From positions 1-25,695 of IMG/VR virus record IMGVR_UViG_3300027865_000042: a DNA stretch of 25,695 bases. One strand, 5' to 3'. Shown in pieces: positions 2,399 to 25,695 of the stretch. Source of the stretch: a virus. The position numbers were made by a program, and so were the translations under genes. The notes under the pieces were generated by a model. It made no database searches and was not told the origin of the DNA. It saw nothing but the letters and a program-made list of their open reading frames with translations. The first letter of the stretch is position 1, and every line of letters begins with the position of its first letter.

Positions 2399-2752
2399 TT
2401 AAATATGCGTTAAATGTGCGATGCGCTGGAAAATTGCTTTATACGCTGCATAAGCTAGTTCGAGTGTAGCTAGTGCTTCGGATGCGCTATCTATCTCATG
2501 CGTATCTGCATTGTAGTAGCGCACTTTGTAGTGCCTTGGCTGATTGGCGAATATCTCGCTTGTGATGAAATAGTTCCCTCGTAACAGCTCCGATTCGATA
2601 TGCGATTGGAAAAACCCCATTGTGTTGCAATCGAAGAAATGAAACCCTGCGGCTTTGTGGTTGGCTTTTACTTGTGTCATAGTTAACGTATTGCTCACGT
2701 ATTTTTCATTTCCTTGGCTGAGTTCGGTTATTGATGTGTTTTTTGAATGCAT
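2399..2752 (-). CDS. Small phage/plasmid-type protein with FF-TMGFF and YFITSE motifs, 117 aa
   Basis: The ATG at 2752 follows TAAGGAG by six bases. Residues about 35 to 66 contain AGFHFFDCNTMGFFQS and YFITSE. This pattern recurs in small uncharacterised phage and plasmid proteins, which I recognise only by memory of the motif, and function is unknown. The first eight residues, MHSKNTSI, are identical to those of the pentapeptide-repeat protein just upstream, because both genes begin in copies of a 36-bp repeat. The start lies 25 bases inside the upstream gene, so translation is probably coupled. The last residues (RIAHLTHI) and the stop codon are encoded by a copy of the GTTAAATATGCG repeat found at 1733-1950, so the original C-terminus may have been replaced. 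Confidence 0.75.
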   Translation of the reverse strand: MHSKNTSITELSQGNEKYVSNTLTMTQVKANHKAAGFHFFDCNTMGFFQSHIESELLRGNYFITSEIFANQPRHYKVRYYNADTHEIDSASEALATLELAYAAYKAIFQRIAHLTHI

Positions 2753-3663
2753 GGAGAACTCCTTAGCAGATTAGCGCCTCGCAGGTCTGCGCCTCGCAGG
2801 TCGGCATAACCCAGTTTAGCATCTTTCAATTGCGCATCTTTCAGGTTTGCGCCTAGCAGATTAGCGCCTCGCAGGTCTGCGCGCTCCAGGTCGGCGCATT
2901 CCAGGCGAGCACCTTTTAGGTTGGCATCTCTCAGGTCGGCGCCTTTCAGGTTACTCCATAGCAGATTAGCGCCTTTCAGGTTAGCATATTCAAAGTCAGC
3001 ATTTTCCAGGTTAGCGCATTCCAGGTCAGCGCCTTCAAGGTTAGCGCCTTTCAGGTTTGCGCCTTTCAAGTTAGCAGCCTCCAGGTCAGCGCGCTCCAGG
3101 TCGGCGCATTCCAGGCGAGCACCTTTTAGGTTGGCATCTCTCAGGTCGGCGCCTTTCAGGTTAGCGCCTTTCAGGTCGGCGCATTCCAGGCGAGCACCTT
3201 TTAGGTTGGCATCTCTCAGGTCGGCGCCTTTCAGGTCGGCGCCTTTCAGGTCGGCGCCTTTCAGGTCGGCGCCTTTCAGGTTAGCGCCTTTCAGGTTAGC
3301 GCATTTCAGGTTAACGCCTTTCAGGTTAGCACCTTTTAGGTTAGCACCTTTTAGGTTAGCACCTTTCAAGGTAGCGGCTTCCAGGACCGCATCTTTCAAG
3401 GTAGCGGCTTCCAGATCAGCGCGCTCCAGGTCGGCGCATTCCAGGTCAGCATATTCAAAGTCGGCGCCTTTCAGGTCGGCGCCTTTCAGGTCGGCGCCTT
3501 TCAGGTTAGCGCCTTTCAGGTTAGCGCCTTTCAGGTTAGCGCCTTTCAGGTTAGCGCCTTTCAGGTTAACGCCTTTCAGGTCAGCATATTCAAAGTCAGC
3601 ATATTCAAAGTCAGCATATTCAAAGTCAGCATCTTCCAGGATTGATGTGTTTTTTGAATGCAT
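2728..3663 (-). CDS. Pentapeptide-repeat protein, 311 aa
   Basis: The ATG at 3663 follows TAAGGAG by six bases. After an 11-residue leader ([11 protein letters not shown]) come about 58 uninterrupted pentapeptides of the A(D/N)LKG type, with variants [15 protein letters not shown] and ADLRD. The C-terminal tail [10 protein letters not shown] is out-of-frame read-through of the next gene's start region. The pentapeptide family folds as a right-handed quadrilateral beta-helix with four repeats per turn, so about 14 turns are expected. Some members mimic DNA and bind gyrase (Qnr, MfpA), but most are uncharacterised. Nothing here identifies a target: the repeats are unusually uniform and no dimerisation domain is seen. 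The opposite strand is also open, only because of the repeat composition. Confidence 0.92.
2730..2765 (-). repeat. 36-bp direct repeat, copy 1 (RBS and start of the 117-aa gene)
   Basis: Identical over 36 bp to 3641-3676. Read leftward it contains TAAGGAG, the ATG and the MHSKNTSI codons of the 117-aa gene, and in another frame the end of the pentapeptide protein. Confidence 0.95.
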
Positions 3664-3676
3664 GGAGAACTCCTTA
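3641..3676 (-). repeat. 36-bp direct repeat, copy 2 (RBS and start of the pentapeptide gene)
   Basis: Identical to 2730-2765. Read leftward it holds the stop codon of the 51-aa gene (within TAAGGAG), then the ATG and MHSKNTSI codons of the pentapeptide gene. The two copies are 911 bp apart and bracket the whole repeat array. Confidence 0.95.
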
Positions 3677-3829
3677 TCGGTATATGTGAGAATGTTGTTG
3701 TACGAAGCGGCCGCAATGATTACATTTAGCTTTGAAAATTCCTTTCTTTCTTATAAGTTTTATTGATGTCATGCGCTTGTCAGGCCCACATCTACAGGAA
3801 TAAGTATATACCTTAATGTATGATTCCAT
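3674..3829 (-). CDS. Small zinc-ribbon-like protein, 51 aa
   Basis: A short leftward frame starts at the ATG at 3829, preceded by GAGGT at six-base spacing, and ends with TAA inside the TAAGGAG of the pentapeptide gene. The protein begins MESYIKVYTYSCRCGPDKRM. Cys12, Cys14, Cys36 and Cys39 form a CxC...CxxC set that could bind one zinc ion, with basic residues between (KLIRKKGIFKAK). Tight coupling to the next gene and a matching SD favour a real gene. Its role is unknown; such knuckles often bind nucleic acid or protein. An in-frame TGA lies just upstream of the ATG, so no longer start is available. Confidence 0.65.
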   Translation of the reverse strand: MESYIKVYTYSCRCGPDKRMTSIKLIRKKGIFKAKCNHCGRFVQQHSHIYR

Positions 3830-10637: not shown

Positions 10638-11729
10638 ATGCCAGATAAAGTAATGGTCGAAGATAGCCAAGCTGGGGAAGCGACCGCCCTGGAAACGCTC
10701 ATGCAGACAGGATTAGAGGTCGAAACTGACGATACTCCAAGAGACTCGTCAGAACCTGAGGAAGCGACCGCCTCCGAAGAAGAAAATGCAGTAGCAACCC
10801 CCTCAGATAGTAGCGCTGACGCTGACGCTGACGCTGATGCTGACGCTGACGCTTTGCCAGCGACTGAGGACGGTAGTGCTGAGAGTGATGCCAGTATTAA
10901 CGAAAAGACTACTGTCGGAGATGACAGCACATCAAAGAGCAAAGAAAAACCTGCACAGAAAAAGCATAAAACAGGGTCTGCGCGATTCCATGAGGTAACC
11001 GCTCAACGATATAAGGCAGAAGCTCGGGCTGACGCAGCCGAAGAAAAGTACCAAACAGCATTGGCAGAGCTAAATCAGTTGAAAAACCCTAAATCATCCG
11101 CAGGAAAGCAGTCTAAACCCAATAAACTGCCTATGATGCCGACAAAAGAGTCTGTGGAGTTTGACGACGAACGTTATGCAGCAGTGGTGAACCAGTACCA
11201 GCAGGATATGGAAGCATACAGGGATTATCGTCAGGAAGAACGTGTTCTAACCCGTGAAGCGGTGCAAGCGAAGCGTGCGGCGGATATCGCATACAACGAG
11301 GCATCTGAAGCGATAGAGAACGTTTTTTACGACCTTCAAGATGCGTATAAAGATGCTAAAGGACCTGATGGCAAGTTATTACGTCCTGACTATGCGCAAG
11401 TTTGCTTCTCAAATCTTACGGTGCAGCCTGCGGTAGAGCAAGCTATTAAGGAAAGTGAACATGGTCCTGAATTACTGTATCATATAGGAAAGAACCCTGA
11501 TTTAGCAGCTAAGCTCTTATCCATGAGCCCTTCTCGCGCAGTAATGGTTTTAGGATCGATTGATGTTGCAGGAAAGATGTCTGCTGCGTATCAAAGAAAG
11601 GGATTGTCCAATGCGCCTAAGCCTATAGACCCTCTTGGAAATGCAGGACGATCCGGAGTTTATTCTAACGTTGAAACTATGCCCATGGCTGATTTTATGC
11701 GACAACAAGAAAAAGACTACTATGGGTAA
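10638..11729 (+). CDS. Probable scaffold protein, 363 aa
   Basis: Position between portal and coat, strong acidity and predicted coiled coils identify this as the assembly scaffold of the prohead, expected to leave after assembly. Residues 1-100 are acidic and low-complexity, including (Asp-Ala)6 from six GACGCT/GATGCT units (10818-10853). A Lys-rich stretch (KSKEKPAQKKHKTGSARFHE) is followed by long helices (YKAEARADAAEEKYQTALAE; YRDYRQEERVLTREAVQAKR). The C-terminal region (VMVLGSIDVAGKMSAAYQRK) would be the coat-binding end by analogy with P22, which is inference. A weak GGATGGGA precedes the ATG. Confidence 0.85.
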   Translation: MPDKVMVEDSQAGEATALETLMQTGLEVETDDTPRDSSEPEEATASEEENAVATPSDSSADADADADADADALPATEDGSAESDASINEKTTVGDDSTSKSKEKPAQKKHKTGSARFHEVTAQRYKAEARADAAEEKYQTALAELNQLKNPKSSAGKQSKPNKLPMMPTKESVEFDDERYAAVVNQYQQDMEAYRDYRQEERVLTREAVQAKRAADIAYNEASEAIENVFYDLQDAYKDAKGPDGKLLRPDYAQVCFSNLTVQPAVEQAIKESEHGPELLYHIGKNPDLAAKLLSMSPSRAVMVLGSIDVAGKMSAAYQRKGLSNAPKPIDPLGNAGRSGVYSNVETMPMADFMRQQEKDYYG

Positions 11730-20120: not shown

Positions 20121-21104
<984 letters not shown>

Positions 21105-21114
21105 GGGGAAAACC

Positions 21115-22737
21115 ATGCCGTTTGAGAGACCGAAAAAAGATTTCTTTGAACGAGAACGCGAATTGTACAAGTCGATACCGTTTGGTGAAGGCTTGGATGA
21201 AAACCAGATTATGTCCACAATTCGTCGTCAGGATGAAGAACAGGCAGCCGCTGAACAACAACAACAACAACAACAGCCAATGGGGGGCCCTTCGGATGCT
21301 GAAGACATCCTGGAATTTATGACTCGTAATGAAGATAAGGTAGCCCAGCTGGAGCGGGAATCCAATATGGAGCCAGGGAGTATTCGAAAACAATTTGAAG
21401 AGCTGGATAGAGCTGCTAAAATAGAGGCTGACGAACAGGAAGCGGTGGATTTCGAAAATGCATCCAATGTTAACATATCTCCGGAAGTAGCTGCCCAATA
21501 TGCAAAAGCAGCTGGGTTTGATATACCTGCGTCCCATATACCTGAAGCGCGTCAAGTGATGTCACGAATGACTAAAACACGCCGGGATACGAAGTTAGAC
21601 GCCGATACGAAAGAAGTATCCCTTAACCAAGACAAGAACTTGCTGAATCAAATCGTATTGCGGTCTACAACTCAGAATGGTAGGCGCGGCGTAGCTGTTA
21701 CTGGTGAAACCTCTGGTGGTCGAAGAGCGGAGGAGCTGCGCGGATTCGAAAGCGAGCCTCTTGCCCGAAAACCGACCGGGGAAGAGACAGCGATAGGAGA
21801 GGAGTCAATAATTGACCCCCAAGGTCGTGAAGTGACACGACAAGCTCTGTCGCCGCCAGGCAGATTCTTTCCTGAACCGAAAGACACGCCTCAACGTGAT
21901 ATAGAACAATTCCTTAATACGTTGGAAGACGAAACCACTTTACTCGGCGGTGCTGCGGGACAACGCGATGTAGAGGCACAACGTCAGCGTAACGCAATAC
22001 GTATTGCTGGATTTAAAAACCAAATGGATCAACGGACTGTTCTGAAACCTGGAGAAGAGATTTTTGAAACGGGACCGGGCGAGGCTAAGCGGCTTGGAGG
22101 CGTGGCCTCGTTACCTCCAAGAGGTGTGGGAGGTGTAGGACGGGCTCAGGGCGACGAACTTAGTGAACTGACAGCTGGTGCGAAAACACAAATACAAAAA
22201 GAAATCCGTGAGTCACGGGGGCGATTTCAGGAGTTCGCGAACTTAGCAAAAGATCCCCGATTCAAACCGGAAAATAATTTGACGTATTATCGAGCTGGCC
22301 TAGCTAAGTTCGGATCTTTTTTAGATGAAATATCGCCGAGTATATCAGGCGCATTTAATTTGCAAGATAACATTACGGATTTTAATGAATTCAAAGCGCT
22401 CACAGAAAACATGTTTACTTCCTGGCGTCGCGCCGTAACCGGCGTCGCATTTCGACCGGAAGAGGAAAAAGCTCTGCGGAAAGCATTCCCTTCAACGCAA
22501 GACGGCCCCACAGCGTACAAAGCCAAATTGAACGCTGTGCAGCAATTAAACCGGCGCATTGTAGCGAGACTGCAAACGTACCGGCCTGGAGATAAGATCG
22601 ATGTATTGAGCGAGTTAGCCCGGGCGCAATCTGAGCGTAAAATCCCTGACGATGTCGCTGCACAGATATTCAAATCGGTAGGGGGCAATAAAGCGATGGC
22701 TCGGCAACGGGCCTTAGATATGGGTTATACCCTGTAA
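21115..22737 (+). CDS. Probable ejection (internal virion) protein, 540 aa
   Basis: GGGGAA lies just before the ATG. The N-terminal region (MPFERPKKDFFERERELYKS) is charged, followed by a Gln7 run (six CAA and one CAG, 21256-21276). The middle 150-340 is low-complexity, polar and probably disordered. From about residue 355 a helical domain follows (ELTAGAKTQIQKEIRESRGR; FGSFLDEISPSISGAFN; MFTSWRRAVTGVAFRPEEEK; GPTAYKAKLNAVQQL), which resembles C-terminal domains of phage internal or DNA-injection proteins. The last residues GGNKAMARQRALDMGYTL look like a short tail signal. Function is inferred from position and composition. Confidence 0.65.
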   Translation: MPFERPKKDFFERERELYKSIPFGEGLDENQIMSTIRRQDEEQAAAEQQQQQQQPMGGPSDAEDILEFMTRNEDKVAQLERESNMEPGSIRKQFEELDRAAKIEADEQEAVDFENASNVNISPEVAAQYAKAAGFDIPASHIPEARQVMSRMTKTRRDTKLDADTKEVSLNQDKNLLNQIVLRSTTQNGRRGVAVTGETSGGRRAEELRGFESEPLARKPTGEETAIGEESIIDPQGREVTRQALSPPGRFFPEPKDTPQRDIEQFLNTLEDETTLLGGAAGQRDVEAQRQRNAIRIAGFKNQMDQRTVLKPGEEIFETGPGEAKRLGGVASLPPRGVGGVGRAQGDELSELTAGAKTQIQKEIRESRGRFQEFANLAKDPRFKPENNLTYYRAGLAKFGSFLDEISPSISGAFNLQDNITDFNEFKALTENMFTSWRRAVTGVAFRPEEEKALRKAFPSTQDGPTAYKAKLNAVQQLNRRIVARLQTYRPGDKIDVLSELARAQSERKIPDDVAAQIFKSVGGNKAMARQRALDMGYTL

Positions 22738-24341
22738 TGGCTGATATCTTCGATCAATTAGAGCAGCAGCAAAGCGGCGGTAGGCAGCTGCCCGGCACAG
22801 TCGCAACCAGTGGGGATATCTTCGATCAATTAGAACAGCAGCAAACAGCTCCTCCAGGAGAGCCCTCGATACCTCTAACTGAAGTAGTATCAGGGGCGCT
22901 GCGAAATTTCCCAGAAAGTACCTCCCAGTTTGCAAAGGTCGTAGCCGAACCGTTTACAAGTGTTGAAGGATTTGTCAATACTGCTAAAAGTATCGGAACC
23001 CTCGCCCAAGGACTTGTACAGTACGCTATCCCAGGCGACCATCCGTCGGAAAAGGCTGTTGAAGCTGTCGGGAAGATGTATGCCGGCCGATTTGGTGGGT
23101 TAGAGAATATTAAGCGCACCTTGCGAGATGACCCTGTAGGCTTTATGGCCGATCTGTCGTTTTTCTTAGGTACTGGTGGGGCTGTCGCTGCGAAAGTCGC
23201 GGGTGCTGGGAAAGTAGGTCGCGCAGCTGCCGCTGTAGGGCGTGTAGGCAAAGCTTTAGATCCTGTACGTATTGCAGGGACAGTAGTGTCTGCGCCGATT
23301 AAGCTCGCGGGCAAGATAGGTAAACAAGTCATCGGGAATATGGTAACCGGTGTTGGTGCTGAGACTATCAGCAAGGCATTCGACCGGCCGCCGGATTTCG
23401 TAAAAGGCCTGACAGGTAAAACTAATATGGAAGATGTGCTGCGTAACGCAAAAGGCGGCCTCAGCAGCATGAAGGATGACCGCGCAATTGCGTACACAGC
23501 ACAGTTAGCTAAGGTAAAAGCTGCATCGAGAATAATTGACATGGGGTCGATAAAAACAGCTATGCGGAAGAACTTAACTAAGAATTACCAAGCAAAAATC
23601 GACGGTGCAGGCAACTTAGATTTAGCCAGCTCAGTATTCCCGGATGCAGTGCAGAGCGATGTGCAGAAAATATATAAACTGGTTAATGAATGGGATGCGA
23701 CCCCCGGCAACACCGCACCTATCGGGCTGGATACATTAAAGCGAAGACTTGATGATTTCTTCGTACCTTCGAAAAATAGTCGTGCGTTTGTGACAGGCTT
23801 GCGTAACGAAGTAAAGAATAAACTTACTGCCAACGTAAAAAATTACGCTAAAATGACAAAGGATTACGCCGAGGCTTCGGATATCCTGAATCAAATAGAA
23901 AAGGGTCTCGCCCTCGGAGATCGTGGGTCTATGGACTCAGCTATCCGAAGGCTATCTGCCGTAATGAAAGAGAATAATGAATTCCGAAATAGCCTTTTAG
24001 GTAAGCTTGAAGTAGCTGCGGGAACTGATTTTCGCGCCCAGATTGCAGGGATTCAAATGCAGAAAATGTTGCCCCAAGGATTGATAGGCAGATTAGCTGA
24101 TGTTGGCATAGCGACCAATATACTACAGAAAGGTATTATGGCTACCGATCCGGCATTATTCGCCGCGTTAATGGCAACCTCTCCCAGAGTTATGGCTACG
24201 TTTTTGAATGTCCTCGGTAAAGGCTATCGTGGTTCCCGCGCAGTATACCGGGGTGCTGCCGCGGTCACGCCAGGCAGCTTTCAACTAAGTCGAGCAGGTT
24301 TAAAAGCTGAGCAATCGCAACAGCTTGCAGAATTGGAATAG
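22737..24341 (+). CDS. Probable ejection (internal virion) protein with DIFDQLEQQQ repeats, 534 aa
   Basis: The start overlaps the preceding stop (TAATG). The motif DIFDQLEQQQ occurs twice, at residues 3-12 and 27-36, the DNA copies being 72 bp apart. A similar motif often opens phage internal proteins. Residues about 136-205 are small-residue-rich and hydrophobic (MADLSFFLGTGGAVAAKVAG; KLAGKIGKQVIGNMVTGVG), suited to membrane insertion during DNA ejection. The rest is helical (YLAKM-free regions such as LTANVKNYAKMTKDYAEASD). In P22-like phages the last three tail-cluster genes include ejection proteins, which fits. It is the last gene of the rightward structural run before the hairpins. Confidence 0.65.
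   Translation: MADIFDQLEQQQSGGRQLPGTVATSGDIFDQLEQQQTAPPGEPSIPLTEVVSGALRNFPESTSQFAKVVAEPFTSVEGFVNTAKSIGTLAQGLVQYAIPGDHPSEKAVEAVGKMYAGRFGGLENIKRTLRDDPVGFMADLSFFLGTGGAVAAKVAGAGKVGRAAAAVGRVGKALDPVRIAGTVVSAPIKLAGKIGKQVIGNMVTGVGAETISKAFDRPPDFVKGLTGKTNMEDVLRNAKGGLSSMKDDRAIAYTAQLAKVKAASRIIDMGSIKTAMRKNLTKNYQAKIDGAGNLDLASSVFPDAVQSDVQKIYKLVNEWDATPGNTAPIGLDTLKRRLDDFFVPSKNSRAFVTGLRNEVKNKLTANVKNYAKMTKDYAEASDILNQIEKGLALGDRGSMDSAIRRLSAVMKENNEFRNSLLGKLEVAAGTDFRAQIAGIQMQKMLPQGLIGRLADVGIATNILQKGIMATDPALFAALMATSPRVMATFLNVLGKGYRGSRAVYRGAAAVTPGSFQLSRAGLKAEQSQQLAELE

Positions 24342-25160: not shown

Positions 25161-25695
<535 letters not shown>

Follow-up and report, generated by a model that had tools for sequence, protein, structure and literature searches.

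How does repeat DNA that carries neither a start nor a stop codon of its own come to be read as a gene inside a phage operon? This question is raised by a 25.7-kb viral contig (hereafter the window, i.e., the whole stretch of 25,695 nucleotides that was analyzed), which contains a P22-like head module identified in Pfam by its portal (PF16510, E 2.4e-155) and coat (PF11651, E 2.2e-54) genes. On the minus strand of this contig, a 51-aa ORF (3674..3829) is followed by a 36-bp segment (copy 1, 3641..3676), an 875-bp pentapeptide-repeat array (2766..3640), a second copy of the same segment (copy 2, 2730..2765), and a 117-aa ORF (2399..2752).

The 36-bp sequence TAAGGAGTTCTCCATGCATTCAAAAAACACATCAAT is present twice on the minus strand (3676-3641 and 2765-2730) with 100% identity and a spacing of 911 bp, and these are its only two copies in this record. 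Identity ends abruptly on either side of both copies, which are flanked by CCGA and CCTGG (copy 1) and by CTGC and AACCG (copy 2). Since the longest direct repeat in 50 Markov resamples of the window (repeat tracts masked) reached only 13-17 bp, the 36-bp pair is far beyond chance. Both copies contain the SD AAGGAG, a spacer of 6 bases, an ATG, and the codons of MHSKNTSI, and it is there that the 311-aa pentapeptide-repeat ORF (2728..3663) and the 117-aa ORF start. At 3674-3676, precisely where copy 1 opens, lies the TAA stop codon that terminates the 51-aa gene (after the residues HIYR). It overlaps the SD that follows it, and the array continues in frame from the eight codons. Copy 2 is read in a second frame as well, in which it encodes the last 10 codons of the array gene, and the stop codon starts on the final base of copy 2 and is completed by the two that follow. 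Copy 2 thus ends the array gene and starts the 117-aa gene, and therefore the two genes overlap by 25 nt. Virtual removal of the array together with one copy yields an ordinary operon junction, composed of the stop codon of the 51-aa gene, the SD, and the start codon of the 117-aa gene. The descriptive part of the original prediction is thereby borne out, both in the coordinates and identity of exact 36-bp direct repeats holding the SD, ATG, and MHSKNTSI codons of both genes, and in the expectation that removal of 911 bp would leave the 51-aa gene followed by the 117-aa gene with the same signals.

Between the two copies, the array consists of 58 units of 15 bp with the consensus A(D/N)LKG. 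Its register is strict, with leucine or phenylalanine at the central position in every unit and alanine in 55 of the 58, and the 311-aa ORF matches PF00805 in Pfam with an E-value of 5.2e-94 (307.6 bits). Because copy 1 supplies the start and copy 2 supplies the end, the array DNA is left without a start or stop of its own, and it likewise has no cap or terminal domain. Exact internal repeats of 30-75 bp are found within the array, the one of 75 bp at a spacing of 210 bp, and all the spacings are multiples of 15 bp. These repeats show that recombination inside the array was recent.

The AlphaFold2 model of the 311-aa protein, obtained without an alignment, was a beta-solenoid with a mean pLDDT of 83.9 and strand positions every 5 residues. 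Values of pLDDT below 50 were obtained at residues 1-6 and 300-311, i.e., those coded by the 36-bp copies, and at the internal residues 177-180. The predicted fold, and this prediction only, corresponds to the quadrilateral beta-helix. Foldseek searches with the model retrieved pentapeptide solenoids, both natural and designed, the closest being designed or cyanobacterial, and matches to MfpA (2bm4, E 1.3e-8) and QnrB1 (2xty, E 1.2e-9) were among them. The gyrase-binding proteins MfpA and Qnr share the pentapeptide solenoid predicted here, and proteins of this type typically dimerise via C-terminal helices (PMC10886550). Such dimerisation helices are absent from the 311-aa model, which contains no helix at all and in which the predicted C-terminus is a disordered, repeat-derived tail. 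Low-complexity similarity of this kind between a model and MfpA/Qnr is no evidence of gyrase binding. Expression within the same operon, as a rod-like beta-solenoid, is probable, and the protein may be a DNA mimic directed at a host enzyme that binds DNA.

The best reading of this arrangement is that the array would have been captured, or have grown, at the operon junction through recombination driven by homology or microhomology, with duplication of the 36 bp. Specifically, we propose, with a probability of about 0.5, that DNA made up purely of pentapeptide repeats was turned into a gene within an operon of a P22-like phage, by recombination at a gene junction that was duplicated in the process. 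It is from the anatomy, the frames, the exact repeat, the bare array, the clean empty-site junction, and the internal duplications, all of them present in the sequence, that we infer an order of events and a recombination route. The ancestral order was likely the 51-aa gene, a single 36-bp junction (stop/SD/ATG), and the DUF7447 gene, as the 117-aa ORF is annotated. A fragment of an array would have been joined in frame after the first eight codons, while its other end would have been joined to the SD of a second copy of the junction via the short homology CTA[A/T]GGAGT. The event itself could have been the integration through the 36 bp of a circular or intermolecular recombinant, or else template switching. 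In this way the array would have acquired the SD and start of its neighbour, which would have retained a copy for itself. The resulting repeat pair would leave the array prone to one-way loss, which is not a regulated switch. This reading is favoured by the abrupt limits of the 36-bp identity, the stop codon with which copy 1 starts, the bare array, and a predicted solenoid that ends at the copies.

The joint between the array and copy 2 is consistent with a short homology of this sort. The 18 bases across it (2775-2758), GCTAATCTGC on the array side and TAAGGAGT on the side of copy 2, recur within the array at 2970-2953, where units 44-45 (GCTAATCTGCTATGGAGT, 2953..2970, minus strand) differ from the joint by one mismatch (17/18 identical). 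Given the ten shared bases before the joint, the chance that at least 7 of the next 8 also match is about 0.001, according to a simple count for a match that was noticed post hoc. The match marks either a short homology through which the array and the SD were brought together or a remnant of the joint, a copy of which entered the array. Short stretches of homology are substrates of phage Rad52-like recombinases (PMC3945230). The internal exact repeats, the excess of tandem repeats across the contig, and the 17/18 match at the joint all point to recombination within a repeat-prone region.

In a rival reading, no foreign DNA was inserted and the array grew in place. The junction would first have been duplicated with little sequence separating the two copies, and this intervening sequence would then have expanded by slippage and unequal recombination to 58 units. 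This origin would agree with the near purity of the array, its recent exact internal repeats spaced in multiples of 15 bp, and units 44-45, which could be a relic of the array/SD joint copied in during growth. It would also agree with the richness of the contig in tandem repeats elsewhere. Tandem repeats as a whole make up 7.6% of the contig, whereas the 79 loci with related coat genes have a median of 0 and do not exceed 2.8%. However, the units vary at their outer positions (K/E/R, G/C/Y/D), whereas the alanine and leucine/phenylalanine of the core are conserved and their codons differ by synonymous changes. This pattern resembles that of an older array selected at the protein level. In addition, the GC content of the array (0.55) is above that of the contig (0.47). 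We thus regard growth without foreign DNA as rather unlikely. Two results count against capture: apart from the microhomology, matches to the 36-mer are not in excess within the array, and viral contigs searched for a donor array contained none, yielding one distant pentapeptide gene only.

Relatives with an empty or a filled site were sought in several datasets. Only one close contig was found (L004; 78% identity in the coat and 66% in the terminase), and the site is not included in it. No record with the site was retrieved from viral contigs queried with the 117-aa protein, the terminase, the coat (single sequences and alignments), the 25-bp core of the repeat, and the array protein, nor from genome contigs queried with the terminase and coat alignments, and the nucleotide search of a phage collection with the head genes gave no match. 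Among 80 loci found by the coat alignment, no DUF7447 gene, array, or 36-bp segment was present, which is weak evidence because many of these loci are short or end before that upstream region. Records very near the window may be missing from the searched sets. Since no relative with an empty or a filled site was found, the polarity of gain or loss is derived from the anatomy.

Another explanation suggested originally was an on/off switch. The 36-bp copies would recombine, with loss of the array in part of the population and a change in the coupling of the DUF7447 gene. The geometry permits it, since the repeats are direct and exact and both neighbouring genes would retain their signals after deletion. 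Nevertheless, deletion between direct repeats is one-way, no inverted arrangement is present, and the search of viral contigs retrieved no record carrying the repeat. Moreover, the cassette holds no recombinase, and Pfam and PHROGs named none among the scanned proteins of the window, which are a part of the ORFs of a contig that is itself a fragment. Because loss is one-way and no recombinase was named among those proteins, the switch is unsupported, although not refuted, and we consider it improbable. The anatomy of the site is unusually clean, and insertion of a cassette by start-site duplication, the other origin put forward in the original prediction, is plausible, as the bare array, the duplicated start signals, and the clean virtual empty site fit it well.

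Even less probable is a repeated regulatory leader, kept identical by a protein or RNA with both translation starts as its target. Start leaders are repeated in another locus (L099) too, which has SD/start repeats of 51 bp and 22 bp. Against this, the sequence occurs here in two copies only, and its identity covers third codon positions and stops abruptly. Furthermore, copy 1 has no stable structure (z 1.16) and copy 2 none that is significant (z -1.12), and a shared RNA hairpin at both starts was rejected on these values. Least probable of all is an assembly artefact by which short reads were misjoined in the repeat tract, since despite a repetitive array on a contig that starts and ends within repeats, the longest exact repeat (75 bp) and the flanking pair (36 bp) are below ordinary short reads (read length assumed) and the frame is open across all 58 units.

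A point against capture comes from the 117-aa gene itself, which matches DUF7447 (PF24239; phrog_4655) with 63.1 bits, versus a curated cut-off of 24.1. DUF7447 homologues begin at approximately residue 19-21 of the window protein, residues 2-20 are predicted to be unstructured, and a GTG is found at residue 19 (2698-2696) with AAGGA located 12 nt upstream. The 117-aa gene may thus not need copy 2, and if this GTG is the native start, the 36 bp need not have been the start of the 117-aa gene. The SD, ATG, and MHSKNTSI codons of copy 2 are present as originally described, but that the gene relies on them has become less certain. In both proteins, the residues encoded by the 36 bp may be an appended part. 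For DUF7447, no structure was matched at an E-value of 0.001 or less, and its relatives were adjoined neither by a homologue of the 51-aa gene nor by a pentapeptide gene.

Ten pentapeptide genes of other phages for which the ends are annotated, those of the P22-like phages g341c and ST160 among them, are built differently: every end was non-repeat, and the longest start-segment repeat nearby was 9-13 bp, versus 36 bp here. Gene 37 of the Salmonella phage g341c and Orf232 of ST160 belong to the same repeat family and also derive from P22-like phages. Unlike the 311-aa gene, however, they encode proteins that begin and end with non-repeat sequence, and their start segments are not duplicated. 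Exact repeats of at least 20 bp carrying the SD and start of two ORFs amounted to four cases, the present one included, in 1.18 Mb of loci, a small and non-random sample. Duplicated start segments are thus uncommon but not unique.

The closest known parallel is found at gene ends. In Cluster I mycobacteriophages, gene 68 of Island3 shares a 3' end of ~50-60 bp with its upstream neighbour, gene 67, and Brujita has one copy and no gene 68; recombination between the Island3 copies, in either direction, was proposed by the authors, who likened them to the short conserved boundary sequences of phage mosaicism (PMC3029335). As in Island3 and Brujita, the extra gene in the window is flanked by a direct repeat made of a gene boundary. 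On the other hand, the repeat of Island3 consists of 3' gene ends while here it is a stop/SD/start segment, the cassette here is a bare pentapeptide array, and a one-copy relative is known for Island3 alone. Lambdoid phages, in turn, are described as having short boundary sequences at gene borders where modules could recombine (Clark et al. 2001; Susskind and Botstein 1978; both as cited in PMC3029335). Those sequences are known from comparisons between phages, whereas the pair described here lies within one contig. A literature search for a duplicated ribosome-binding-site cassette found no direct case. With a gene lying between direct copies of a gene-border sequence, the present locus is a variant of the boundary-repeat cassette, in which the repeat is a gene-start segment and the cassette a bare array.

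The locus would be a near-fresh example of a phage gaining a translatable gene that lacks its own ribosome-binding site, start, and stop, at a place where loss is also easy. Should relatives confirm an empty site with one copy, the locus would clearly represent the birth of a gene through duplicated start signals, and the idea of boundary sequences would reach beyond gene ends to gene starts. Otherwise, it would be a repeat-rich region of a repeat-rich phage. Only tentatively do we suggest a wider rule, by which a single recombination event could turn a bare repeat array into a functional phage gene, duplicating the stop/SD/start junction of a neighbour so that the array itself would need no start, stop, or cap, and the same homology would permit its later loss or movement.

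Repeats of other kinds were observed along the contig and in the loci compared. The first 800 positions contain a 27-bp tandem repeat in about 25 copies on the minus strand, translated as a nine-residue repeat (SSQVGEMRD type) in a 387-aa ORF (1-1161) that runs off the contig and has no Pfam match. The intergenic region at 1700-2450 holds many imperfect copies of GCGTTAAATATGCGATGCGC and of GTCCATTA/TGGACAC motifs. Low-complexity coding tracts are found at 20165-20242 (polyglycine), 25588-25695 (Pro-Ala, at the contig end), and 10814-10853 (Asp-Ala), and such tracts together with the arrays give the tandem-repeat content reported above, the highest among the loci compared. Elsewhere, a pentapeptide array of the Vibrio phage CP-T1 (L113, 4000-4195) has no annotated gene over it, and the 51-bp exact repeat of L099 (5076-5126 and 5994-6044), which carries the SD and start of two different ORFs, is a second duplicated start leader. 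Finally, a 31-bp repeat with one mismatch (22743-22773 and 22815-22845) doubles the residues DIFDQLEQQQ in frame, 24 codons apart, near the N-terminus of the ORF at 22737-24341.
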